Origin: Obelidium mucronatum
Lineage: Eukaryota; Chytridiomycota; Chytridiomycetes; Chytridiales; Chytriomycetaceae
DNA: 64,000 bases
Direction: 5' to 3'
Assembly: GCA_025765595.1 (NCBI GenBank)
Contig: JAIVFH010000031.1
Coordinates: forward strand, 186,001-250,000
Shown: positions 35,395 to 64,000 of the stretch, piece by piece
Numbering within the stretch: position 1 is the stretch's first letter
How the letters are laid out: the number at the start of each line of letters is the position of its first letter
Position numbers and translations under genes: made by a program
The notes under the pieces: generated by a model
What the model was told of the DNA's origin: nothing
Databases searched by the model: none
Seen by the model: the letters and a program-made list of their open reading frames with translations, nothing else

Positions 35395-36304
35395 CATGGC
35401 AGCCCTGCGTAGTTACTTTGCGAGCTGATGTTTGATGTTCCTTTTTCAGAGTCTGAAAGAAAAAAAACTGTTTGGGCGTTTGCTCCAGGGGGGTGGGACT
35501 CACTTTGGTGGATTGGAGAATTTCCATATCCAACAATACAAAAGTTACCCACAAGGACCTTCAAATCCTTCCCAACATTTGATCAAAACCTTCCAATGCG
35601 GCTGTCTAGAGAGCGGGTAGGGCGTGCACTCCCAAACCCAGGACTGTCGAGGGAACACATTGGTGTGGTCAGAGCCCATGGCAGGCTATTTGCAACATCT
35701 GAGTGATATCTGATGATATCTGAAATTCTGAAACGATTTCAATTTGAAAACTTGCAAAATGAAAAATTGCAAAAATCAAAAGAAAGATAACAATCAATGA
35801 CCAACACCGTCAGACCTCTCCCCCCCCGTGCTCACCAGAGAGCAGCGAAATCGAGGAGTTCTGCACTGGCTGCAAAGGTTTCAAGAAGCGAATGTGAGAA
35901 GGTCCCAACAATGGGCCAACAAATATCAAAGACGGCAGCAAGCATGGAATAATGCCCAAGTACAGCCTCGCAACAGACAGGCCGCTCTACACCCTGAAGC
36001 GGGAGCAGAACTCCAGTTTGATGGAGCTGACGATATAGGACTGGAGGCATCTGTCTCAGCTACAGAACAGCGAAGACGTAGAGTAAGGTTGCACCCCAAC
36101 CCATGCTCAATACTGCAAGTATTAATGGATTCCATTTGAAAGATGGGGCAATATGTCAAAAGCCAAGTTCAAACTGTGATTTGTGCTATTGAAAACGGAA
36201 GTTATGTTGTTGTGCACATGGGGGATACATCGGCAGCAGAAGTTGCATCAATTTGGATGCATGCAGAAGTTGTGCTCCTGTTCTACGAGCGTGAGCTGGT
36301 TGGG
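35395..36304 (+). repeat. Left inverted arm
   Basis: Matches 40581-41493 in reverse complement. It includes a copy of the promoter, exon 1 and part of exon 2 of the dioxygenase gene. The copied ORF (from ATG 35799) is frameshifted by a 2 nt shorter C/T tract near 35819-35827. Homology stops after GAGCTGGTTGGG. Confidence 0.85.
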
Positions 36305-36380
36305 CAATATTACAGTTGGGGAAATGATGGTCTGCCGTAGCCATTATTATTGAAATAGCACAAAAACACAGAAGACCCAC

Positions 36381-36763
36381 CTCTCTTGGTGGTTGTACTG
36401 GCCAGAAGATCCCATAAAAGGACCAAGAGAACGGCCAAGGGAAGGGCCAAGAGAGGAGCCAAGAGAGGAGCCACCAACTCTGGTCAATATTTAAGGGAAT
36501 TATAGATAAGAGAAAAGACTAACAATTCTGGACGCAAGAATGCATTGCGGCTTTGCAATGATGGCCCTTGGTGATCACCTAATGGTGATGGCATGCTTCG
36601 ATTGAGTGGCCAGTCGCTGATGGTTTTACGTTGGTGATCGGCAGCACAATAAAGAATAAACAGACACATACCTCCCTTGAGGATCCTGGGATCCTAGACT
36701 CTGGTAATGGTATTGGTATTGGAAGTTGCTGTTGGATGAACTTGAGTTTGATCCACTTGCCAT
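36381..36763 (-). CDS. Ser/Gly/Gln-rich protein divergent from the transposase
   Basis: Exons 36763-36672, 36616-36524 and 36479-36381 join in frame from MASGSNSSSSNSN through QYQYHYQSLGSQDPQG to a Gly-Ser-Leu repeat (GSSLGSSLGPSLGRSLG). The frame then reaches a GTGGG donor and no next exon is clear. Low-complexity composition suggests a prion-like or scaffold protein. I do not recognise a family. Its start is 40 bp from the transposase ATG, so one bidirectional promoter probably serves both. Confidence 0.45.
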
Positions 36764-36802
36764 GATGTGTGATTTTAGGATATTTCCTTTAAAATATTTA
36801 AC

Positions 36803-39578
36803 ATGAACACAAACCATCAATGGCAATGCCAAAACTGTGGAAAAGTACTCAGCCGTAAACGTATACGTGATATGCATCAATCCAGGTGCATAATGGGAAA
36901 TGACATGGACTCAGATGATGAATCGGCAGATGGGATTGTCACCACAAATACAACTGATCCTCCAACATATCCAATCACAAACAATCCTAATGTATCCAGC
37001 CATACAGGATTAGGGGATTTCGATAATGATGATTTGGAAATGACTGGATCTCCTGGTTTGGGTGATGGTGAAGGGGAAGGTGCTGACAGTGCTGCCGAGA
37101 GCACAGGAAGAGACACGGAAAGCAAGGACAGTGATGAAAGAACTGACACTGAAAACCACAGTGATTATTCAAACAGTGATGATTCAAACAGTGATGAATC
37201 CAACAGTGACAAATCTGATGACGACCAGGGACTTGACAGCGACTTTAAGCCATTCAAATCAAAGGTGCTTGCTGCATTGTTCATCCTTCTATTTGGATGC
37301 AGACGAAGAATGAGCATTGAAAAGATGAAAGTTCTTTGGGTCATCTTCAAAGTCCTTGACATTGGCGTCCCAAGTTTAAAAACTGTATTGACGTGGAGGA
37401 AAAAGATTGGAGCAATAGAGCCAAAACAGCGAGATGTAAGACCTGGTGTCTCAATTTACGTGAGGTCTCTTCAGGATTTGGTTCGGATGGTGTTCCAAAA
37501 TCCCGAGCTTGCCGCTGCTGTTCAAAGAGCCCCCAAGCAGTCCTCAAACCCCAAGGAAATGTATGAAAGTGCAGCTTTCTCTAGACTGGCTCCGCAACTG
37601 TATGGTGATTGGAATGGGACGCGTTTGTATAAAGGGTAGGGCAGAGTTGTGCACTCAGAAAAAACAATAACAGTTCACAAACAGAGACAAACTCAGAATT
37701 GGTTGCTATATTGCTGAAATACACAGTTTTTCTGCTCCGGCAACTGTGGTAGTTTTTTGGCAATACCATTTTCACAGTGTCAGCATGACTGGTGTCGCTC
37801 CTCCAATTGTTTCTCGGGGATCTCTATCTGTCAGAGGTGAGGCTTTTTGGCATTATGGTTTGATTATAACATTTTTTTTAGCCAACGGCCTTGCCGTTGT
37901 GAACTTTCCCATTGTTCTCTCATCTGATGAAACTTCTGGAAATAAAACAAAGCGCTACAATCGATTCGAATCAGTGTTTGCATTTTATGCAGCTCTTCCT
38001 AAAGCCTATCACACATCGTCTTTCATCAACTTTGTTGCCACTACTCATGCGATGTGGCCCAGGCTGTTCTGGAAGACTTGACCCCAGGTACTGAAAAATA
38101 CTGTAATATTGCAAATATTTTTTAACTTTTATTAGATTCTGATTTGTCAATGGGACTGAGAGTGTGGGACTGTCATACAAAGCAACAGGTGATCATTGTG
38201 TCAAACTTGTTTGCAATTGTTGGAGACAATCCCAGACATTATCAAGTCTGTAATCTAGCTGGTTCAAGGGCTAATTTTAATTGCCGCATGTGCCATTCTG
38301 AGCGGGGGGTGTTATCTGCCTCGGCTCCAAGGACAATGTCGATAGGAGTCTGCTGATGGGGATCGAAGTTGGGAAGGGTCAAATATGGGTTCGGCAGCTC
38401 ATCTGCACTGAAGGCGATGCCAGTGGCCCTCTGTAGCACCTTCTTTTCTTCAGCAGTTCTGGATTGAGCCATTTGCTGCAGGACTTGTAATGTTGTTGAC
38501 CTATTGCATACCAGCTCTCTGGGAGTTATTAAATATGCAGCTCGAAAAGCCAAGTTAATCTATCAAAAGAAGGCCCCCACTGTTGCGTCAAAAAAGCTAC
38601 AGTCGGCTGTGGGGCTCTTGTTTGCTGCTGTTTCTCGGTACAAAGGCCACCACGCCGTCACATCCTATCAGTTCATGTGGCATATAGGCAGCATGAATGC
38701 AAAAGATTTCAAATCAGTTGCACAGATTTCTCCGTTCCTGTATCCATGGTTTGACCCAGAGCATGGTGCCTTGTGGATCTCAATTGCTGCATTGAACAAA
38801 GTGACCTAAACACACTATAAGAATCAGTCACAACAAGCACTCTTAATTGGAACAGCTGCAACCACTGTTCAAAAACTGCTGACCAAGCATTATCCTGACG
38901 TGGCAAAAACGTCAAAAATACATTTGCTCAGCCATATGGAGACTCAATTCAAAGAATTTAGCCCACTCCCTCTTTACGACGTTGAAGTACCAGAGCATAA
39001 GAATGGGGATGTTCGGGAATTCCTAGTGAACTCTAATCGCAAGGAAAGCTCCCGCGATACAGCCAATAACTTTTCTGTCTCCGAACGTGTTTTTGATTTG
39101 CTGAGGGGGGGTGGTTCGGGTGGCTGTGGGCTGCAACAATTAAGTCAGGATTCCAGCGAGACTCTGAAGCTTGATTCTCCCAAAAGCCCAAATCGCCGAG
39201 TGACCAAAGACGAATTTGTCTTCTTCCAGAACTGGACAATGATTGGATTGGTTGGTTGTTCCTTCCAAGGACAAGATGAAACTATTGCCGTTGACACCTG
39301 TTTCATGGAATCGCTGGGGTATAACAACATACTCACTGGGAACACAAGAATGTGAGGTGATGCGAGAAAATGTGAATGGTCATGCAGATGTATTTCACGA
39401 CTGCTGGGGGGACAGTTCCTGTTGCCGATGGGACCGAGAGAGTGAGGGTGACTTAGAACATGACCGTCGGAACTTATACATTCTGAATCCATTTCGGCTA
39501 GAGGAACATCATACTGCAGATAACCAGGAAATGTATACAGTGCTTCAGTACTGTCTTAGCATAGTTTCTAGTCAATAA
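36803..39578 (+). pseudogene. Plavaka-type transposase, disrupted
   Basis: ATG 36803 opens with a zinc-finger-like CQNCGKVLSRKRIRDMHQSRC, then an acidic Asp/Ser-rich linker. The transposase body follows (MSIEKMKVLWVIFKVLDIG; YESAAFSRLAPQLYGDW). After a probable intron at about 37636-37687 the frame continues to SSDETSGNKTKRYNRFESVFAF, CRMCHSE, then HTSSLGVIKYAARKAK, KTSKIHLLSHMETQFKEFSP and NSNRKESSRDTANNF. The stretch 38313-38502 is inverted: its coding sense (FSADELPNPYLTLPNFDPH) is on the minus strand. A possible 24 nt intron lies at 37859-37882. It is a catalytic DNA transposase by family. Confidence 0.65.
38313..38502 (-). other. Small internal inversion in the transposase
   Basis: On the minus strand this segment encodes QRATGIAFSADELPNPYLTL and NFDPHQQTPIDI, the piece that should precede LHTSSLGVIKYAA on the plus strand. 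Breakpoints are estimated from where coding sense changes strand. Confidence 0.6.
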
Positions 39579-39610
39579 AAATATAATTAACACAAGCAAA
39601 AAAGGGCCTT

Positions 39611-41091
39611 TTATTTCTTTCTTTTACAGGGCTGCTCTGGAGTCACAGTATTGGCACTGTCTCTTCCTTTTAAATTGTGGAATAGAGGTTCAAATGACCC
39701 AAACACTTCCACAAACCGCTCATCGAAAACTCCAGTAAATCCTGGTCGAATATCTACCTGATGGTTGAATTTCCAAGCAAAAAATGAAATAATTGTCCCA
39801 GGATGGATCTGGCTTGCAATCGTGAGATACTACAGATGTTAAGTTGTTCAAAAACTCACAGGAATACTGAAATTGAAGTCAGGAAATGTAAGCATGCTAT
39901 CACCCCCCCTAAAGTTCCCACTATAAAGAAGTGTGCTTGGAATTTCATGGTCATCATTGACATCGGCATGGTTTGGGTTTAGAATTCCAGATCCAATGTA
40001 TCGAAGTGGGTACAGTCCATTCTCCTTCAACCTCCACAGAACACTTGGATCGTGCTTTGAAATCAGATGATGGACATCTTTTTTTCTCTGCATTGAATTT
40101 GGAAAGAACAAACTGTTGAGATGATCAACAAGCATAACAATCTGTTGTGGACATTCAGCATTTTCCAACACCATACTTTACATACATGTTGTGTATCATT
40201 GGAGTACTTGAAAGTGTTTCCCAAACTTTCACTTGTTAAATTCGTTGTGGTACAGTCCGTCTGGACTATAGCAGATCTGAAAGACGAAACGGAAATTGAC
40301 AAACGGGTTTTCTGGCAACCCCAGTGGCCAGCGCAATACCGAACAGAGAAATTAAACATCCCTGACTTCTGAATGTTCACCCGATCAGGGTAACTATTGC
40401 TGTGCCCTTCTCCTTCAGGTTCGGGCAACTTTCTGGCAAATGCAAGAGTAAATTTCCAAGGTTATATAACAAATCAATAATAAAAGCATACTTATAAGAG
40501 AAACAAAAGTTTCTGATTATCTGATAATAGTCCTCCAACGTATGCTTCTCGATTCGGGTGTTCTTGTGATTCAGAGTGTACCCAACCAGCTCACGCTCGT
40601 AGAACAGCAGCACAACTTCTGCATGCTTCCAAATTGATGCAACTTCTGCTGCCGATGTATCCCCCATGTGCACAACAACATAACTTCCGTTTTCAATAGC
40701 ACAAATCACAGTTTGAACTTGGCTTTTGACATATTGCCCCATCCTTCAATTGGAATCCATTAATACTTGCAGTATTGAGCATAGGTTGGGGTGCAAACCT
40801 TACTCTACGCCTGCGCTGTTCTGTAGCCGAGACGGATGCCTCCTGTACTATATCGTCAGCTCCATCAAACTGGAGTTCTGCTCCCGCTTCAGGTTGTAAA
40901 GCGGCCTGTCTGTTGCAAGGCTGTACTTGGGCGTTATTCCATGCTTGCTGCCGTCTTTGATATTCGTTGGCCCATTGTTGGGACCCTCTCGCATTCGCTT
41001 CTTGAAACCTTTGCAGCCAGTGAAGAACTCCTCGATTTCGCTGCTCTCTGGTGAGCACGGGGGGAGGGAGAGGTCTGACGGTGTTGGTCAT
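39611..41091 (-). CDS. Transposon-borne 2-oxoglutarate/Fe(II) dioxygenase-like protein
   Basis: ATG 41091 starts MTNTVRPLPPPVLTREQ, a Gln/Arg-rich N-terminus. Probable introns lie near 40748-40802 and 40438-40494. A helical region (HAEVVLLFYERELVG; LEDYYQIIRNFCFSY) follows, then a double-stranded beta-helix pattern. NPNHADVNDD has the H-x-D pair, SGNFRGGDSMLTFPD the Gly-Gly strand, and PGTIISFFAWKFNHQVDIRPG the distal His plus Arg. Family members hydroxylate proteins or oxidise nucleic-acid bases. A role on DNA, as for TET/JBP, is inference. The tail ends QPCKRKK before TAA 39611. Two junctions need introns of only 32 and 30 nt, so partial decay is possible. Confidence 0.55.
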
Positions 41092-41493
41092 TGATTGTTA
41101 TCTTTCTTTTGAATTTTGCAATTTTTCATTTTGCAAGTTTTCATTTTGAAATCATTTCAGAATTTCAGATATCATCAGATATCACTCAGATGTTGCAAAT
41201 AGCCTGCCATGGGCTCTGACCACACCAATGCGTTCCCTCGACAGTCCTGGGTTTGGGAGTGCACGCCCTACCCGCTCTCTAGACAGCCGCATTGGAAGGT
41301 TTTGATCAAATGTTGGGAAGGATTTGAAGGTCCTTGTGGGTAACTTTTGTATTGTTGGATATGGAAATCTTCCAATCCACCAAAGTGAGTCCCACCCCCC
41401 TGGAGCAAACGCCCAAACAGTTTTTTTTCTTTCAGACTCTGAAAAAGGAACATCAAACATCAGCTCGCAAAGTAACTACGCAGGGCTGCCATG
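40581..41493 (-). repeat. Right inverted arm
   Basis: Reverse complement of the left arm. It contains the intact start of the dioxygenase-like gene (ATG 41091) and about 400 bp upstream of it. Confidence 0.85.
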
Positions 41494-41733
41494 TTGGAGA
41501 CATTTCTCACTCCGTAATAGGGGTGTGTGAGCCATCTTATGAGTTTAACTTGATAGACGGTTGGCCCTCATGAAAAACTTGATTTATCTCCACCATACAG
41601 ACATATTGCTGTTTGATTCAACAACATTTTTTGACATTTTCTGTGGAGCTTGTGTTTGTTTAAATACAAGATCCACAGCTGTTGATTGCTGAAGTACAGC
41701 ACGTATATGGAGCTATATCGTAGCATCATTCAA

Positions 41734-41818
41734 GGAGAATAAATGCCTATCTAGTGCAGTTGCGTAATGCTCTGAATTGCTTAGGGGTAGGTTCCTGGTT
41801 CGAATCCATTCTCCACCA
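41734..41818 (+). ncRNA. tRNA-like relic (85 nt)
   Basis: GGAGAAT (41734-41740) pairs perfectly with ATTCTCC (41808-41814), which is followed by ACCA. A B-box GGTTCGAATCC lies at 41798-41806 and around. The D and anticodon arms do not fold convincingly and no A box is clear, so I call a tRNA-derived relic or SINE head rather than a functional tRNA. Confidence 0.35.
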
Positions 41819-41874
41819 TTTTGGTGAATTATGCTGGAATTATGCAAATATTCTGTGGCATTTTTAACAAGAAG

Positions 41875-41967
41875 TTCTGTAGGTACGATTTTTCTACAGA
41901 ATACCTACAGAACCGGGTTCTGAAGCAATCCTGTCACTAGAACCGGTGTTCTGCAGGTATTCTGCAG
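41875..41967. repeat. Nested imperfect palindromes
   Basis: TTCTGTAGGTA (41875-41885) is complementary to TACCTACAGAA (41902-41912). A second pairing links CTACAGAATACCTACAG with CTGCAGGTATTCTGCAG (41951-41967, with changes). This resembles a miniature inverted-repeat element or its terminus. Confidence 0.5.
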
Positions 41968-43219
41968 GAAAATGGTTTAGCGGTGTAGTGAGGGATCCAG
42001 CCACCACCAGCCTAACATGTGACATGCCACCAACTGCTTCCAGATGCACCAGAGTTAAAGATTCATATCTGCAATACAATCACAACATACTCTGTGTCAA
42101 TGAGGAGCCTGTTTTTGCTATTTACAAGTAGGAGCCTTCTAAATAACCACACCACCTTCCCTAACACATTCCAGTATCAATAGTGAGAAACTGTATTAGA
42201 GTCCAAATAGCAAAGTTTATTGGTGTATTGAATATCAGCAGTATTGACAAGGATCCTGTTTACAAAGATCTCAAACAGTCCATGATCAAATGGCAGGGAC
42301 TCATACCCACTAGATCCCAGCTAAATCAGAAATAATTTTTCACAGCAGTGGGTTTATTACTGGTATGTGTTGTCTTGTTTATTACTTGTGACTTTTTTTG
42401 CTTTGGTCAACATCCTTTTTTTTTCTAAATCCATTTCCATCAGTTTGGCAACTTCTAAATCCCCCCTGATATTTTCCTGATTTTTAGCTATTTTATTTGA
42501 TGCTCGGATTTTTTTGTTTTGCTAACAACCTAGAACTTCAAAATATGAGACCCACTCTTGGTTTGCATCCCATTCTTAATTCCCCACCAACCAACACCCA
42601 CCATCACCTATTTTTTTTGAATGCATTTCCATCAGTTTCAAAACTTTTAAAAACACATTTATTTTTCTCTGATTTTTCTCTATTATATTTGATGTTGTGA
42701 CTTTTTTCTGTTTTCTAACATCAAAAAAAATATCCAACAGGTGTCTCACCCAGTCACAACACCACACCATTGGGTAATAATCTTCTAAACATGAGATCAA
42801 TTCATGGTATGCATGCCAGTTCTCCAGTCCCTCTAGCTACGGCTTTTTTTTGTTTTTTTTGTTGCACCATCACAGGTTTAAGTCCTAGTTAGCAAAGTGC
42901 AGTGAATGCCAGACATCTACAGAGGAGTTTAGGGTTCAGTCCCCACTTTGACCACACATTGATGTTGCAGCAAGTCTCCACTCTATTTTCCACTCTATTC
43001 TTCCAGAAATAAGGTAACAGACTTGTGGCTATCCATTCATTTTGTAAAGTTTCCGTAACGCCTGCCTTGACGTAAAGTCACATCCGCAGCCTTCACTGTA
43101 ACATTACAACTAACAAATTTTTCACGGGCTTTTTTCAGAAACAAGACAAGTGTCTGAGTCCCACCCCCTTGCGTTGTTTGCTCTGCACAGTTTTGCAATA
43201 ATCACCAGAATATGCTTCA

Positions 43220-46953: not shown

Positions 46954-46977
46954 TAGTATTGAAACTAAAATACAATA

Positions 46978-48255
46978 ATGGCTGATACTCCTCCTGCTAC
47001 CGCTCCTCGGAAATCTGTCGGTTTTGCCGCTACTTCTTCGGCCGCTGGTCCTTCAAACCCCGCCGCTGACCAATCTTTGCTCACTCGTCGCTCCGTTGCT
47101 CCCGACCTTGTCTCTCTCAAGAATGATTTTGATGAAGATAATGGATCTGAACAACAAACCAACAATGTCCTGGATGGAATTGACGAGGCCAGTCGCTACA
47201 TGGAAGCCAACACGGATAATGAATTTGATGTGGCCACATCCATGGATGCTTTCCGTACGGATCTTTTGGCTCTTTCTCGTCTTGTCCGCAATCAATCTAG
47301 TCGTCTTGATAAAGTCATTGAAGCATTTGCTGCGTCATCAAAAGCCGATCGCAAAGTTCACCGTCAACGTTCAGTTAGCCCGGTTGGTAGTGCCTCGGAC
47401 TCTGACGATCAGTCTGACTCGGGTTCCCGGTTCGAATCCTCGAAGTCTGACAAAATTTCTCTTCGTGTTGCCAAGCCTCCTGTTTTCAAGGGCCTTGCTA
47501 CCGATGATTTTGATGATTTTATGCTCAAAGTCTATCTCAATTTTGACAATTCTGGACCCAAGGGTATCCTTTCCACCAAGTCCAAAATTGCTTTTGTGGT
47601 TTCCTACCTTGGTGGTAATGCTGCCAAGTGGTACATCAACCACGTTGCCAAGCCTGAGCTCCAGTTCAAAAGCTTTCAGGAATTTGCTGATGTCTTTGCC
47701 GCCTTCTTCGGCGAAGACCCACGTGTCGCTGAAGCAATTGCCAACGACAAAGCCAAGACCTTGACCCAGACTACTTCTTGTCAAGCCTACGCCCGTGATT
47801 TTCTACGTTGGATTGCTGGTACTCAACACAACGATTACACCAAGATGTTGATGTTCAAGCAAGGTCTCAAGCTTCACGTGATGAACTATATTGATGGTCT
47901 GGAACCTCAACCAACCAACCTCTCCATGCTCATGCGCAAGGCCATTGTCTTCGATGAGCGCGTGTTTGCTAACAACAAACGTTCTGGATCCTCCAAGGGT
48001 AACCAAGGTTCTGGTTCCAGCTCCCGTTCCAATAACCCAGGTGCTGCTTCCAAGCCCTCTGGGTCTGCTGATGTTGCCGCCGCTGATGTCAAGTCTGGCA
48101 AGCCTACTCACGAGGAACGTCAGCGCCGCAAGGATAAAGGTCTTTGCGCTTACTGTGGTCAAGACGGTTGCAAGGGTGCTTCTGACACCAAAGCTTGCCC
48201 CCTCTTGGTTGCAAAAAATGCTCGGAGCGCCCAGGGAAGGGGTGCTCAGGCGTAA
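46978..48255 (+). CDS. gag: gag polyprotein of the gypsy element
   Basis: 425 residues from ATG 46978, 24 bp after the LTR. The N-terminus is Ala/Pro/Ser-rich and disordered. The central capsid-like region (PPVFKGLATDDFDDFMLKVY; WYINHV; FAAFFGED) matches gypsy Gag. The C-terminus has a Cys cluster (CAYCGQDGCKG...ACP) as a variant zinc knuckle. Gag forms the virus-like particle that packages the RNA. The frame ends at TAA 48253-48255, overlapping pol by about 60 nt in the -1 frame. Confidence 0.9.
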   Translation: MADTPPATAPRKSVGFAATSSAAGPSNPAADQSLLTRRSVAPDLVSLKNDFDEDNGSEQQTNNVLDGIDEASRYMEANTDNEFDVATSMDAFRTDLLALSRLVRNQSSRLDKVIEAFAASSKADRKVHRQRSVSPVGSASDSDDQSDSGSRFESSKSDKISLRVAKPPVFKGLATDDFDDFMLKVYLNFDNSGPKGILSTKSKIAFVVSYLGGNAAKWYINHVAKPELQFKSFQEFADVFAAFFGEDPRVAEAIANDKAKTLTQTTSCQAYARDFLRWIAGTQHNDYTKMLMFKQGLKLHVMNYIDGLEPQPTNLSMLMRKAIVFDERVFANNKRSGSSKGNQGSGSSSRSNNPGAASKPSGSADVAAADVKSGKPTHEERQRRKDKGLCAYCGQDGCKGASDTKACPLLVAKNARSAQGRGAQA

Positions 48256-50246
48256 ATTCCCCGCCCAGTTTGGCGATGCAAACTGTCAACCTTTCCGTTC
48301 CCTCATCATCGGATTCCAAGATTGTGCTTCCATGTACACTTGTTGTCGGGGAAAAATTTTCTTCTTCTTCATCTCCAAACCTTACCAAGCCCCTTTCTTT
48401 GGGTGCCTTTGTGGATAGTGGGTGTTCGGCTTTCGGCCTTATTTCCTTAGATTTCGCTCTAAGAAATAAAATACCTGTTGTTCCTTCCTCCACTCTGTAC
48501 AATGTTAATTTAGCAGATGGTTCGCGTTCTCGCTCCATTACTAAACAAACAGTACCTTTAATCTGTCAAATTGGTTCTCATACCGAAACGATGTCTCTTC
48601 TTGTCGCGGATATTTCTTGTCCGCTTATTTTAGGTCTTCCATGGCTTCGCCTTCACAACCCTCGCGTTAATTGGCGTCACATGTTGGTCACATTCTCCGA
48701 TGGGGCTTGCCTGTCAGCTGACCACGTTCCCTCTGAGGCTTTTACCGCCTTGCCTTATTCCCCTCCAGACGATCCAGCTGTCAAGGATCTGGAGGTTTCT
48801 ACCGCTTCTGTTTCAATCCCGACGGAAAATCCGCCAGCGAGTTCTACACCGGACGTTGAGTTGCTTAATACCACTGCGTTTTTTGGCATTGCCAAGAAAC
48901 ATGGGCTTACTATCTTTGCCGCTCGAATGGATGTCACTTCTTCTAAAGATGATGACACTCCCACCGTGTCAATTTCAGCTGTGATTAATACAAAGGACTA
49001 TCAGGAGTCTGCTATCGTTTCTGACGATAGAGGAGTGCCTTTACGCTACAAGCAGTACTCGGACGTGTTTGCACCCAAGTCTGAGACTCCTCGGCCGCTT
49101 CCACCTCATCGCCCTTACGACTTGCCTATCGAGATCGTTAAGAATGAAGATGGAACTTCGGCAAAATTACCGCCGGCTGGGAAAATTTATCCACTGAGCC
49201 CAGCCGAAGAAAAAGTTCTCCAGGAATATCTTACTAATGCCTTGGCTAGAGGCTGGATATCTCCCTCTACCTCTCCGGTCGCCGCCCCTTGCTTCTTTGT
49301 CAAGAAACCAAATGGTGGTTTCCGTCTTTGCATTGACTATCGTGCCATCAACAACATTGTAGTCAAGAACAAGTTTCCGCTACCGCTGTTCACGGATCTT
49401 GCGGGAAAATTATCCAAGGCTAAAATTTTCACTCACTTGGATCTCCCAGACGCGTACCACTTACTAAGAATACGCTCTGGCGATGAATGGAAAACTGCAT
49501 TTCGCTGCAAGTTTGGCCATTTCCAGTATAATGTGGTTAGTTTCGGTCTAACCAACGCCCCAGCTGCCTTCCAGTACTTCATGAATGACATTTTTTCGGA
49601 TTTACTGGGCGTGTTTGTCATCGTTTATTTGGATGACATTCTAATCTTTTCCGAAGATGAAGAATTACACGAACGTCACGTCAAGGAAGTCTTGGAGCGC
49701 TTGCGGAAACACAACTTGGTAGTCAACCCTGCCAAATGTGCCTTCCATACCAGTTCTACGGAATTCCTGGGCCACATCTTCTCTGCCGATGGTGTCAAGA
49801 TGGATCCTGCCAAGGTTGCTACCGTTTCCAGTTGGCCGGTACCTCAGTCTGTCAAAGACGTGCAAATTTTTCTAGGATTTGCAAATTTTTACCGCCAATT
49901 TATCACCGGCTACTCCGATATTGTGTTACCGCTTACCAGCCTAACGCGTAAGGAAGCCAAAATTGGACCCTTTCCATGGTCCGAAGCCGCGGCATCGGCT
50001 TTTGAAAAACTTAAACATGCCTTCTCCACCGCTCCGGTCCTGATTCACTTCGATCCCAGTCGCACCGTGTATGTGGAAACTGATTGCTCAGATTTTGCAC
50101 TGGGCGCAATTTTATCCCAGTTCGGTTCGGATGGAAGGTTACATCCTGTTGCCTTTCACTCCCGCAAGTTAATTCCAGCGGAAATCAACTACGATACTCA
50201 CGACAAGGAACTGCTTGCCATCGTAGACGCGTTCTACTGGTGCTGA
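48195..50246 (+). CDS. pol: pol: protease, reverse transcriptase and N-terminal RNase H
   Basis: The open frame has no ATG of its own near the start, consistent with frameshift expression. It shows protease FVDSGCSAFG (Asp-Ser-Gly), LGLPWL, then RT motifs: FRLCIDYRAINN, a catalytic Asp in FTHLDLPDAYH, FGLTNAPAAFQ and VYLDDILIFS. RNase H begins with VETDCSDFALGAIL and DKELLAIVDAF, then stops at TGA 50244. Thus RNase H is cut roughly in half. RT and RNase H would normally copy the genomic RNA into DNA inside the particle. Confidence 0.92.
   Translation: MPPLGCKKCSERPGKGCSGVNSPPSLAMQTVNLSVPSSSDSKIVLPCTLVVGEKFSSSSSPNLTKPLSLGAFVDSGCSAFGLISLDFALRNKIPVVPSSTLYNVNLADGSRSRSITKQTVPLICQIGSHTETMSLLVADISCPLILGLPWLRLHNPRVNWRHMLVTFSDGACLSADHVPSEAFTALPYSPPDDPAVKDLEVSTASVSIPTENPPASSTPDVELLNTTAFFGIAKKHGLTIFAARMDVTSSKDDDTPTVSISAVINTKDYQESAIVSDDRGVPLRYKQYSDVFAPKSETPRPLPPHRPYDLPIEIVKNEDGTSAKLPPAGKIYPLSPAEEKVLQEYLTNALARGWISPSTSPVAAPCFFVKKPNGGFRLCIDYRAINNIVVKNKFPLPLFTDLAGKLSKAKIFTHLDLPDAYHLLRIRSGDEWKTAFRCKFGHFQYNVVSFGLTNAPAAFQYFMNDIFSDLLGVFVIVYLDDILIFSEDEELHERHVKEVLERLRKHNLVVNPAKCAFHTSSTEFLGHIFSADGVKMDPAKVATVSSWPVPQSVKDVQIFLGFANFYRQFITGYSDIVLPLTSLTRKEAKIGPFPWSEAAASAFEKLKHAFSTAPVLIHFDPSRTVYVETDCSDFALGAILSQFGSDGRLHPVAFHSRKLIPAEINYDTHDKELLAIVDAFYWC
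48213..48219 (+). promoter_or_regulatory. Candidate -1 ribosomal frameshift site A_AAA_AAT
   Basis: In the gag frame the codons are GCA AAA AAT. Slipping by -1 re-pairs on AAA AAA and enters the pol frame, which is open from 48195. The heptamer lies within the gag/pol overlap. I did not fold the downstream RNA. Confidence 0.55.
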
Positions 50247-51222
50247 TACCGCAGACATCTACATTCGGGAAGTTTTTAGACTTCACGGTGCTTCCAGATC
50301 CATTGTATCCGATCGCGACCCGCGTTTTACTGGTGGTTTCTGGCAACGTTTTATGGAACTCCTAAACGTTAAACTTAACATTTCTACCGCTTTTCACCCT
50401 CAAACTGATGGATCTACTGAGGTCCTCAACCAAGTCATTGAGCAATACCTACGCGTTTACTGTAACTACCAGCAAGACGATTGGGTTTCCAAGTTACCGC
50501 TTTGCGAATTTGCCTACAACGATTCTTTGGTAACCACTACTGGTCATACACCATTCTTCGCAAACTCTGGTCACAATCCAATTTTTGACCCCTCTATCAT
50601 TCGTGAATCCTCTGTTCCTGACGCTGAAGATCGCCTCGCGTCTATGAAAACTATTCTTGAAGACCTTCGTGCGAACTTAAAGTTTGCCCAGGAGGGTTAC
50701 ACCACACAAGCCAACAAATCTCGGTTACCAGTTCCGGAAATTAAACCCGGGGACTTGGTTTTCTTGGATCGCCGCAATATCAAGACTAATCGTCCTTCTC
50801 AAAAGATTGATGATAAGAAACTTGGTCCTTTTAAAGTCAAGCGCGTCATCAACCCAGTCGCTTTTGAGCTTGCCTTACCTTTAACCATGCGTATTCACCC
50901 AGTATTCCACGCGTCTTTGCTACATCCCAAAACTAAGAATATTGTCGCCGCGTTTACCCAACCTCCGCCTCCGCCAGTTATCGTGGACAACACTGAAGAA
51001 TGGGAAGTTCAAGAAATCTTGGATTCTCGCGTTTTCTACAACAAACTTCAATATTTAGTCCACTGGATGGGTTATTCTAACTCTGACCGCTCTTGGGAGC
51101 CTGCTGCCAATGTTTCGGGTTCTGCTGAGTTGGTTTCTGAATTCCACGCCAAATATCCCGATAAGCCTGGTCCTGGTGCGATTGCTGCAAGTGTTCGCAA
51201 TCGCAAGAAAAGAAGGGGATGA
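50247..51222 (+). pseudogene. Integrase C-terminal part plus chromodomain, N-terminus deleted
   Basis: Reading resumes, in a different frame from the RT block, with VFRLHGASRSIVSDRDPRF, FHPQTDGSTEVLNQ (the Glu of the DDE triad), the GPY-type region KLGPFKVKRV and a chromodomain (VQEILDSRVFYNKLQYLVHW, WEPAAN). The zinc-binding HHCC domain and first catalytic Asp are missing. The chromodomain in this group directs insertion to particular chromatin. An internal ATG gives a 289-residue frame, but no integrase activity is expected. Confidence 0.88.
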
Positions 51223-62168: not shown

Positions 62169-64000
62169 ATGCAGGTTTGGGGTGAAATCAAAGGTGGATG
62201 GAGATGCAATGTTTGTCAAGTGATCTTGGCCAATCTTCCACCTTCCATGCAACAAAGACATGAAGCTTCGCAAAAACATACAAGTCAACTTCCAAGTTTT
62301 CTCCGTGCCAACGTCATCCACAAAACGGAAAAAGGTATATTATTAATTTATTAATTTAATCAATTTTTTACCAGTTCGAGCAACATCAATATTCTAAGAC
62401 GATGCCGTACTAGAGAGCCGTGATAGTGTTGAGCAAGATGATAGTCCTGATCCAGATTATTCAGACAAACCCGATTTTTCCATCACTGAGAACAGACAAC
62501 GTGCCGAGTCCCACGCTGCATGTGCAGAATCACATGCCAATTCAAAAACTGATACACATGCTAATTCCCACGAGGACTCTCTAGCTGGTTCACAGGCTGA
62601 TTCAAGTGATGATTCACATATTGGTTCCCTGACTGCTTCAGAACCTGATTTAAATGCAGATACAGATGACGAATTTAGCTCAGATTCAGAGTTCAGTGTC
62701 AATCATAATAGTCAGCGTCAATCAGAAGATGAGGAGGAAGAATTGGAAGATGCTGATTTCATTCTCGAGACTCGAGATTCCGCATATTCAGGCTGGAATC
62801 ATCTGAACACTGAAAATTGGTCGCGCGGAAAATTTTTTCCATTCGGATCACTTCACGAATTTAAACTTTCAAAGCTTTTTTCACGCACAAGATCTGTCAT
62901 GTACTCTAGGGATCAGGAAACTGAAATTCTTGACGTGTTTCGTACAGTTGTGCCTGATTTACCTCCCCACAACCGCATTCTGAGTCTTCGATCCACTGTG
63001 CGGGAATTATTAAATGTCCATCCTAGAGAGTGGAAATTGTCGCCGACTGTTTCTGTCTTCTATATTCCTATTGCTACGTCTATTCGATTGGTTTTCGGCA
63101 ATCCTCGAATTCGTGCAAAATTGAACGTTATTCTGGTTGAAAAGGAAACTCAATCTGAACTTTGGGAAAGCTCTCGTTGGAAGGAAAGTATTCAAACGCC
63201 CATGGTTCAAATCATTCAAAACAATGAACCACTTCATATATTCATTGACGAAGTCTATTTTATCAAAGAAATAGAAGGATTTTTACCTTTCACATTTGTA
63301 AAAGATGAAAATGGCAGTTTATTTGCTATTGGATTTTCTGTTTTATTTGATTTAGATTCGGAATTTTGGTTAATTTCTGCTGATGTTAAAAAAGCTCCTG
63401 TGGAAGAATTAAAACACTGGTTCATGTGTCCCATAGGGACAAAAATATTGTGGGAGACAGAAAATGGTAAAGACGCTGAATTGGAAACATCCATAAGGAA
63501 CGGTTCCAAACTTCGAGAAAAGGCTGCTGGAAAACGAGTATTTGTAGCTCCGATTTGTTTATTCAATGATGACACAAGTGGAAACGTTTCAAAGAAGTGG
63601 AACAAATATGAGTTGCTGGAGTTTACACTCGCTGGACTGCCTTTTCATGATATTCAGCAGCTGAATAATATCAACTGGATTTTCGTGAATTTGTTCAGGT
63701 TGCTCCATTTGTGCTTGCAAACCTTGTTAATCGTGCAGAACTTGAAATGTGGAGATGGATGTCCTTTTTCACATCAACTTTGTATTGCTCTCATGTTGAT
63801 AAGAATTCTGCGGCCAGTGTCAATGCCGTCTTGGATCAATTTATTCTTGCAGCGGCAAAGACAAAGCACTTTGAAGGCCTAGTTCGCCCAAAACTTCATT
63901 TATTGCGACATGCCCCATACTTCATTGAACGATATGGACCATTACGAAATGTAGCAAGTGAAAATTTTGAAGGAAACAACAAAGTAGTTCGTAATGCTGT
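62169..64000 (+). CDS. Second Plavaka-type transposase, 5' part (runs off the window)
   Basis: ATG 62169 starts MQVWGEIKGGWRCNVCQVIL, a C-x2-C...H...H finger (CNVC, HEASQKH). An intron (62334-62373) follows. Then comes a Ser/Asp/His-rich acidic repeat region (SHANSKTDTHANSHEDS) and the transposase body: VRELLNVHPREWKLS, then FVAPICLFNDDTSGNVSKKWN and FTLAGLPFHDIQQLN. The coding frame changes once near 63665-63680; downstream FREFVQVAPFVLANLVNRAEL and RPKLHLLRHAPYFIERYGPL continue to the window end. The N-C order equals the element at 36.8 kb but the sequence is clearly diverged. No dioxygenase gene is visible before the window ends. Confidence 0.65.

Follow-up and report, generated by a model that had tools for sequence, protein, structure and literature searches.

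We analyzed a 64,000-nucleotide stretch of the 48.3-Mb genome of Obelidium mucronatum, positions 186001 to 250000 of contig C31 (hereafter the window; C-numbers denote contigs of this genome). A preliminary description of this DNA had taken its host for a zoosporic fungus, and O. mucronatum is indeed a chytrid of the order Chytridiales (Chytridiomycota). The window contains an inserted element in which a plus-strand transposase gene (36803 to 39578) and a minus-strand dioxygenase gene (41091 to 39611) lie tail to tail. The element is probably a DNA transposon copy of the CMCT type, now decayed, from the EnSpm/Plavaka/ESTA side of that clade, and it carries as cargo a divergent TET/JBP-type 2-oxoglutarate/Fe(II) dioxygenase; we apply this grade to the explanation as a whole, including the anti-silencing role proposed below.

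The dioxygenase gene, first noticed through its NHADV, FRGGDS, and FNHQVDIRPG segments, is real: it has five exons and an open frame of 423 amino acids (aa), and an NCBI model exists for it (P0001, BDR26DRAFT_918614). Our splice reading, all on the minus strand, consists of exon 1 (40799 to 41091, shared with the P0001 model), exon 2 (40492 to 40743), exon 3 (40186 to 40432), exon 4 (39860 to 40141, containing the H-x-D motif NHADV and the GNFRGG strand), and exon 5 with the stop codon (39611 to 39808, containing the distal His in FNHQV and the Arg in DERFVEV). Among the AG sites, the last acceptor was picked for being the one that preserves an open frame in agreement with P0002; P0001 differs in this exon, where the present reading, FDERFVEVFGSFE, agrees with P0002 (FDDRFVEVFGSFE). 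A database of 5.8 billion proteins yields four family members, two from Obelidium, including that of the window, and two from Chytriomyces. The window and C2 cargo proteins are 57.6% identical over 401 aa, and their genes differ at codon positions 1, 2, and 3 in proportions of 0.315, 0.256, and 0.600 (raw count, 340 codons), a pattern consistent with purifying selection after the two diverged.

The transposase gene carries the DETSGN segment and is read from six plus-strand pieces (36803 to 37639, 37671 to 38081, 38126 to 38356, 38468 to 38809, 38810 to 39355, and 39243 to 39578), which are 43 to 71% identical, piece by piece, to three C292 open reading frames (ORFs) in tblastn. The transposase gene of the preliminary description is present but not whole: residues 74 to 131 of a C292 ORF match the minus strand at 38332 to 38505 (E = 3.6e-11) and the residues on either side match the plus strand, so that this internal inversion leaves the window copy encoding no whole transposase. 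Full-length relatives are represented by P0005 to P0008. Members of the lineage occur in Obelidium, Podochytrium, and Chytriomyces, none of them with a Pfam name, and the sole non-chytrid match, among the 7994 candidates sharing most words that were scored, is a Puccinia coronata protein (E = 4e-10). The motifs of the CMCT clade, to which EnSpm, Plavaka, ESTA, Transib, and others belong (D, D, C(2)C, H(3-4)H, and E, in this order), are found in the window pieces as SSDETSGN, VWD, CRMC, HLLSH, and EVPEHKNGD, with counterparts in P0005 to P0008, the D's being assigned by eye. The Plavaka family PF18759 has 42 match places in the genome and none in the window, on the window transposase exons, on P0005 to P0008, or on the C292 ORFs; no KDZ family is among the Pfam matches of the window transposase and its relatives. 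When the profile of the window lineage was compared with that of the genome's Plavaka transposases, it scored 29.9 (maximum of 25.5 among the 187 of 200 shuffles that scored), with an hhalign probability of 3% and an alignment at the K-x-H-x-x-x-H and E region. The Plavaka membership proposed at first is accordingly withdrawn: the window transposase is not Pfam Plavaka and belongs to a related CMCT-type lineage.

The extent of the insertion is defined by copies of a dispersed repeat that run through the site uninterrupted (shown by alignment for C78, C312, and C36 and by reading for C89). These copies join window position 35538 to 41986 at TA, so the inserted block spans 35539 to 41985 (6447 bp) and has a TA target duplication at 35537 to 35538 and 41986 to 41987. 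Adjoining matches to both flanks with the same 2-base overlap were found by genome search on C94, C179, C225, and C647. The block begins with CAAAAG and ends with GCGGTG; it thus has the CA..TG ends and 2- to 5-bp duplication that are hallmarks of the CMCT clade, and its TA duplication is a hallmark of ESTA (EnSpm-like) elements.

Two long inverted arms overlap the block, the left at 35395 to 36304 (plus strand) and the right at 40581 to 41493 (minus strand). The left arm consists of 144 bp of flanking repeats followed by the dioxygenase 5' region copied in inverted orientation, its frame shifted relative to the right arm; the right arm consists of dioxygenase exon 1, part of exon 2, upstream DNA, and, lastly, 144 bp copied from the left flank. 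They are identical at 884 of 913 aligned positions, and a 0.91-kb inverted repeat of 97% identity is not a product of chance. The outer 144 bp of the arms are mostly pieces of two dispersed repeats. We considered the arms as terminal inverted repeats and rejected this, as the DNA outside 35395 runs on into a dispersed repeat, the bases adjacent to the arms show no repeat, and C42 yielded no match to a left arm. Since the arms start 144 bp outside the inserted block and end inside the dioxygenase gene, they are not termini; the 0.91-kb arms reported earlier exist, but the empty sites place the element ends at 35539 and 41985. That the right arm contains a copy of the left flank suggests an inverted duplication that took place locally, once the element had inserted. 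Terminal inverted repeats of the block itself were not seen, the left end (CAAAAGTTACC) not being mirrored by the right end (CACCGCTAAACC); the arm may have displaced the original left end. For the right 492 bp (41494 to 41985), the matches listed by a genome search that skips very common words include no further copy. In the stretches around the elements of C225, C2, C79, C42, and C71, which may stop short of the ends, there was no convincing terminal-repeat pair and two short, chance-like pairs. Just inside the right end of the block, positions 41840 to 41985 are dense in short palindromes (ACAGAACCGGGTTCT, AGAACCGGTGTTCTGCAGG), which are perhaps transposase sites.

A third, divergent gene rich in Ser, Gly, and Gln had also been described; what remains of it is a first-exon stub of 31 aa, read by eye at about 36671 to 36763 on the minus strand (MASGSNSSSSNSNFQYQYHYQSLGSQDPQGR, Ser/Gln-rich), the rest being lost and cut off by the left arm. 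Plavaka elements at C2 (L060 208-1547, minus strand), C79 (L061 21-1056, minus strand), and C225 (right part of L030) have further unnamed ORFs divergent from the transposase, and the window stub has the same position as these.

We next turn to the identity of the cargo, for which Pfam names no domain anywhere. A profile of the four family proteins (A2) was searched against 177,635 distinct sequences of the PDB, and Naegleria TET (NgTET) supplied the first two matches (E = 0.004 and 0.005) and the only ones at an E value of <1, the other two matches having E values of 1.1 and 1.7. The alignment covers a 54-residue core that starts near the Asp of H-x-D and stops shortly past the distal His, and the Asp, the G-x-F, and the distal His are in register with NgTET1; the Asp and the distal His fall at iron-ligand positions of NgTET. 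A second profile (A3) was built from four PF12851-matching ORFs of the same genome (C225, C240, C21, and C39), leaving out four further places (two identical ORFs on C41, one on C23, and one on C204). A3 matches both NgTET (E = 6.5e-6) and CcTET (E = 2.2e-4), two TET-like dioxygenases of solved structure, which supports A3 being TET; the C225 ORF alone finds NgTET only (E = 0.31 and 0.46). Compared with each other, A2 and A3 score 38.1 (hhalign E value of 2e-4, probability of 44%; best of 200 column shuffles, 25.0), again with H-x-D, G-x-F, and the distal His in register. Searched without filters against 2010 distinct ORFs (the window plus 74 loci), the family profile ranks the family's own loci first, followed by five PF12851 places, namely C240 (E = 5e-4) and C204, C39, C41, and C21 (E = 0.06 to 0.23). 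Within a set of 8 sequences, the C2 and C240 proteins align over 56 residues at 34% (E = 1.3e-6). In the joint alignment (MAFFT), H307, D309, G324, F326, G347, H359, and R374 (P0002 numbering) are kept, with H307, D309, H359, and R374 invariant across the four family proteins and the four PF12851-matching ORFs. The profile similarity is above chance and TET specific, each single score being modest. H-x-D is present in the four family proteins and in the copies on C51, C60, C79, and C71 (at 101 kb). The PE type of TET/JBP, whose hallmark is H-x-E replacing H-x-D (PMC12730594), does not describe this family. Prolyl hydroxylase and AlkB identities were also rejected, as the profile search found no such PDB chain at E values up to 10 and there is no such Pfam match; the original call of a 2-oxoglutarate/Fe(II) dioxygenase agrees with the sequence data, on the TET/JBP side rather than that of the prolyl hydroxylases.

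Several observations weigh against this identification. The NgTET match is weak (E = 0.004), only the 54-residue core aligns, CcTET is not matched by the family, and the N-terminal half is unrelated to either enzyme. PF12851 is not listed for any of the four proteins at E values up to 10, a level at which HMMER filters drop most matches; the window is not among the eight PF12851 match places of the genome, and the gathering score of Pfam Tet_JBP is not reached. The comparison ORFs are themselves marginal, with C240 alone of the eight places over the curated cutoff and the C225 ORF at 31.2 bits against a cutoff of 34.9. In the ORF search, two of the seven distinct PF12851 ORFs (C225 and C23) were not listed, and C240 alone lay below an E value of 0.05 and past HMMER's inclusion threshold. 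The distal His-Arg spacing is 15 to 17 residues in the family and 9 in the C225 ORF, and the Gly-Gly is absent from the two Chytriomyces members (as it is from NgTET). An AlphaFold model of the family from its four sequences was not usable (mean pLDDT of 34.8, pTM of 0.25) and speaks neither for nor against a double-stranded beta-helix. A 2-oxoglutarate dioxygenase with a non-DNA substrate, that is, a protein or RNA hydroxylase or demethylase helping the element by another route, would accord with an N-terminal half without a known domain, and sequence alone cannot fix the substrate; it is an improbable solution, given that TET-like chains are the only PDB matches at an E value of <1, that the nearest ORFs among the 2010 compared are PF12851 places, and that a PF12851-matching ORF occupies the same slot in a Plavaka element (C225). 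On balance, the cargo is very probably a highly divergent TET/JBP-type 2-oxoglutarate/Fe(II) dioxygenase. The PF12851-matching ORFs form a multicopy TET-like family of their own, with seven further places (L031 to L037, on C240, C41, C21, C39, C23, and C204); several are nearly identical, and two lie 9.5 kb apart on C41.

The dioxygenase family occurs at eight places in the genome (E up to 0.01): C31, C42, C2, C51, C60, C79, and two on C71. All eight adjoin a transposase, which answers the earlier question of whether the two genes co-occur in other copies. At C31 and C42 the transposase is of the DETSGN type; PF18759 matches lie within 3 kb at C2, C51, C60, C79, and C71 at 101 kb (the last one weak, 25.8 bits); and C71 at 48 kb keeps part of a C2-type transposase. 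The chance of five of eight places lying within 3 kb of a PF18759 match is about 2e-10, or about 3e-6 for three of six if two pairs are alleles: C2 and C51 are 98 to 99% identical in DNA, and C2/C51 and C60/C79 may be allelic pairs, leaving six independent loci. At C31, C2, and C79, the coding ends of cargo and transposase face each other about 60 bp or less apart; the exception in orientation is C71 at 101 kb, where both are on the same strand. The C42 copy is decayed and has lost its H-x-D codons through a small deletion, and the pieces at C60, C79, and C71 contain stops or frame breaks that could be introns or decay. One might suppose that the dioxygenase belongs to a host gene family merely located in transposon-rich DNA, the more so as the family is known from four proteins of Obelidium and Chytriomyces and its gene surroundings were seen in Obelidium alone. 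The constant adjacency to transposases, the closely facing coding ends, the recurrence with two transposase lineages, and the position inside the TA-duplication block of the window make that very unlikely, and the gene is almost certainly transposon cargo. Upstream of the C2 dioxygenase (L060 6387-7098) lies a 0.73-kb insertion with 39-bp inverted ends, absent from C51 and with partial matches on C42 and C12.

The association between cargo and transposase is not a fixed one. The DETSGN transposase piece has 12 match places, of which two have the cargo; the cargo is therefore optional, and the view that it is a constant component was rejected. The C2, C225, and C79 transposases show no blastp similarity to the window pieces at an E value of 0.01. 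The elements of C2, C79, and C225 resemble that of the window in having cargo and transposase tail to tail, whereas the transposases of the Plavaka elements (C2, C51, C60, C79, C71, and C225) match PF18759 and the cargo of C225 is a different, PF12851-matching ORF (L030 2341-3333, plus strand), convergent with its PF18759 transposase and 11 bp from its end. Over 408 aa, the transposases of C2 and C225 share 66% identity, and their cargo genes give no pairwise match. Similar cargo thus accompanies dissimilar transposases (window and C2), and the reverse also holds (C2 and C225), so that the histories of cargo and transposase differ both ways. One dioxygenase cargo lineage is common to two transposase lineages. 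Among the eight PF12851 places, one (C225) is near a PF18759 match; the other seven were not searched for other transposases.

Comparison of copies revealed strong traces of CpG decay. The observed/expected CpG ratio is 0.50 in the element, 0.24 in the C42 copy, and 0.73 in the whole window. When the window copy is set against that of C42, 52 of 80 CpG sites show a C/T difference, versus 99 of 945 other C sites (Fisher P = 1e-27; changes unpolarized); between the two arms, 8 of 52 CpG and 6 of 358 other sites do so (P = 7e-5; unpolarized). Such decay is the trace expected of 5-methylcytosine (5mC) deamination or of a CpG-directed process resembling repeat-induced point mutation (RIP), and it suggests 5mC on the elements. 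The C5-DNA-methyltransferase family PF00145 has 22 match places in the genome and MT-A70 has 10, so that both 5mC and N6-methyladenine are possible substrates.

In the mechanism we propose, a CMCT-type transposase would have moved the element, and the dioxygenase would be produced from the element, binding Fe(II) via H-x-D...H and 2-oxoglutarate via the Arg. It would oxidize 5mC, possibly also N6-methyladenine, on element DNA, and this would lift or weaken silencing and favor expression and movement of the element. With its transposase broken and its dioxygenase frame open, the window copy could at most act in trans. We lean toward this anti-silencing through 5mC oxidation as the likeliest role. 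Three points count against it: the low CpG content is not confined to the element (the ratio is 0.78 to 0.98 in the first 32 kb of the window and 0.46 to 0.67 throughout the last 32 kb), CpG decay reflects methylation or a RIP-like process and not demethylation, and the C42 copy decayed in spite of its cargo. The cargo could alternatively be a TET/JBP relative writing a new base (a hypermodification, as in base J or 5gmC) that shields or marks element DNA instead of erasing 5mC. Its great divergence from known TETs, the lack of a PF12851 match, and the other products made within the superfamily by CMD1 and JBP (PMC12730594) favor this, but no glycosyltransferase-type partner was noticed beside the transposase, the cargo, and the divergent unnamed gene (no systematic search was made), and we regard a new-base writer as rather unlikely.

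The element belongs to a known kind. TET-positive DNA transposons of Dikarya include Plavaka, EnSpm, ESTA, Kyakuja, Zisupton, Dileera, hAT, IS3EU, Harbinger, and Helitron, with hosts in Pucciniomycetes, Agaricomycetes, and Pezizomycetes (PMC12730594). TET cargo in Plavaka had already been published for Agaricus bisporus and Gymnopus confluens (Kojima 2025, PMC12730594), so a dioxygenase in a Plavaka element would have been no first report, contrary to what was first supposed. For transposon-borne TET, a June 2026 review names Basidiomycota and Pezizomycetes (PMC13297926). In the open-licence literature, including the available text of PMC12730594 and PMC13297926, we found neither transposon-borne TET in chytrids nor this cargo lineage. 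The Dikarya elements resemble the present one in being DNA transposons with a TET/JBP dioxygenase, with related cargo across several transposase lineages, and in their CMCT-type transposase motifs, CA..TG ends, and 2-bp duplication; their cargo exchange between transposase lineages resembles the Obelidium pattern. Unlike them, the element described here has a chytrid host, an H-x-D cargo (H-x-E in the PE type) with near relatives found only in chytrids, and a transposase that is not PF18759. KDZ transposons with TET/JBP genes (Coprinopsis, Laccaria) share the idea of a transposon-borne base oxidase, but the window transposase has no KDZ match in Pfam. What is new is the chytrid host, an additional cargo lineage that two transposase lineages have in common, and the strong CpG decay between copies. 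Transposon-borne TET/JBP-type enzymes would thereby extend from Dikarya to Chytridiomycota; a single genome combines two kinds of TET-like cargo in one slot with one of these kinds in two transposase lineages; and the decay measurable between copies makes the function of transposon-borne TETs testable in one organism. More tentatively, and with doubt, the cargo may represent an old, further TET/JBP-type lineage of chytrid transposons, distinguished by an N-terminal domain of its own and a long spacing between His and Arg. It would have been exchanged as a module, always entering the same fixed slot next to unrelated CMCT transposases, would compete there with PF12851-type TETs, and would make an oxidized or new base through which element DNA escapes CpG silencing. 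If this were true, TET cargo would be at least as old as the chytrid-Dikarya split or would have crossed it.

Two other regions of the window contain traces of mobile elements. Positions 62398 to 63882 (plus strand) hold a second transposase relic, of the DDTSGN type (FNDDTSGNVSKKWNKY), with its middle missing and, by eye, close to a C58 ORF. At 46969 to 51222 (plus strand), ORFs resemble by eye a Ty3/gypsy retroelement, with a gag-like part, a YLDDILIF motif, and a chromodomain-like end.

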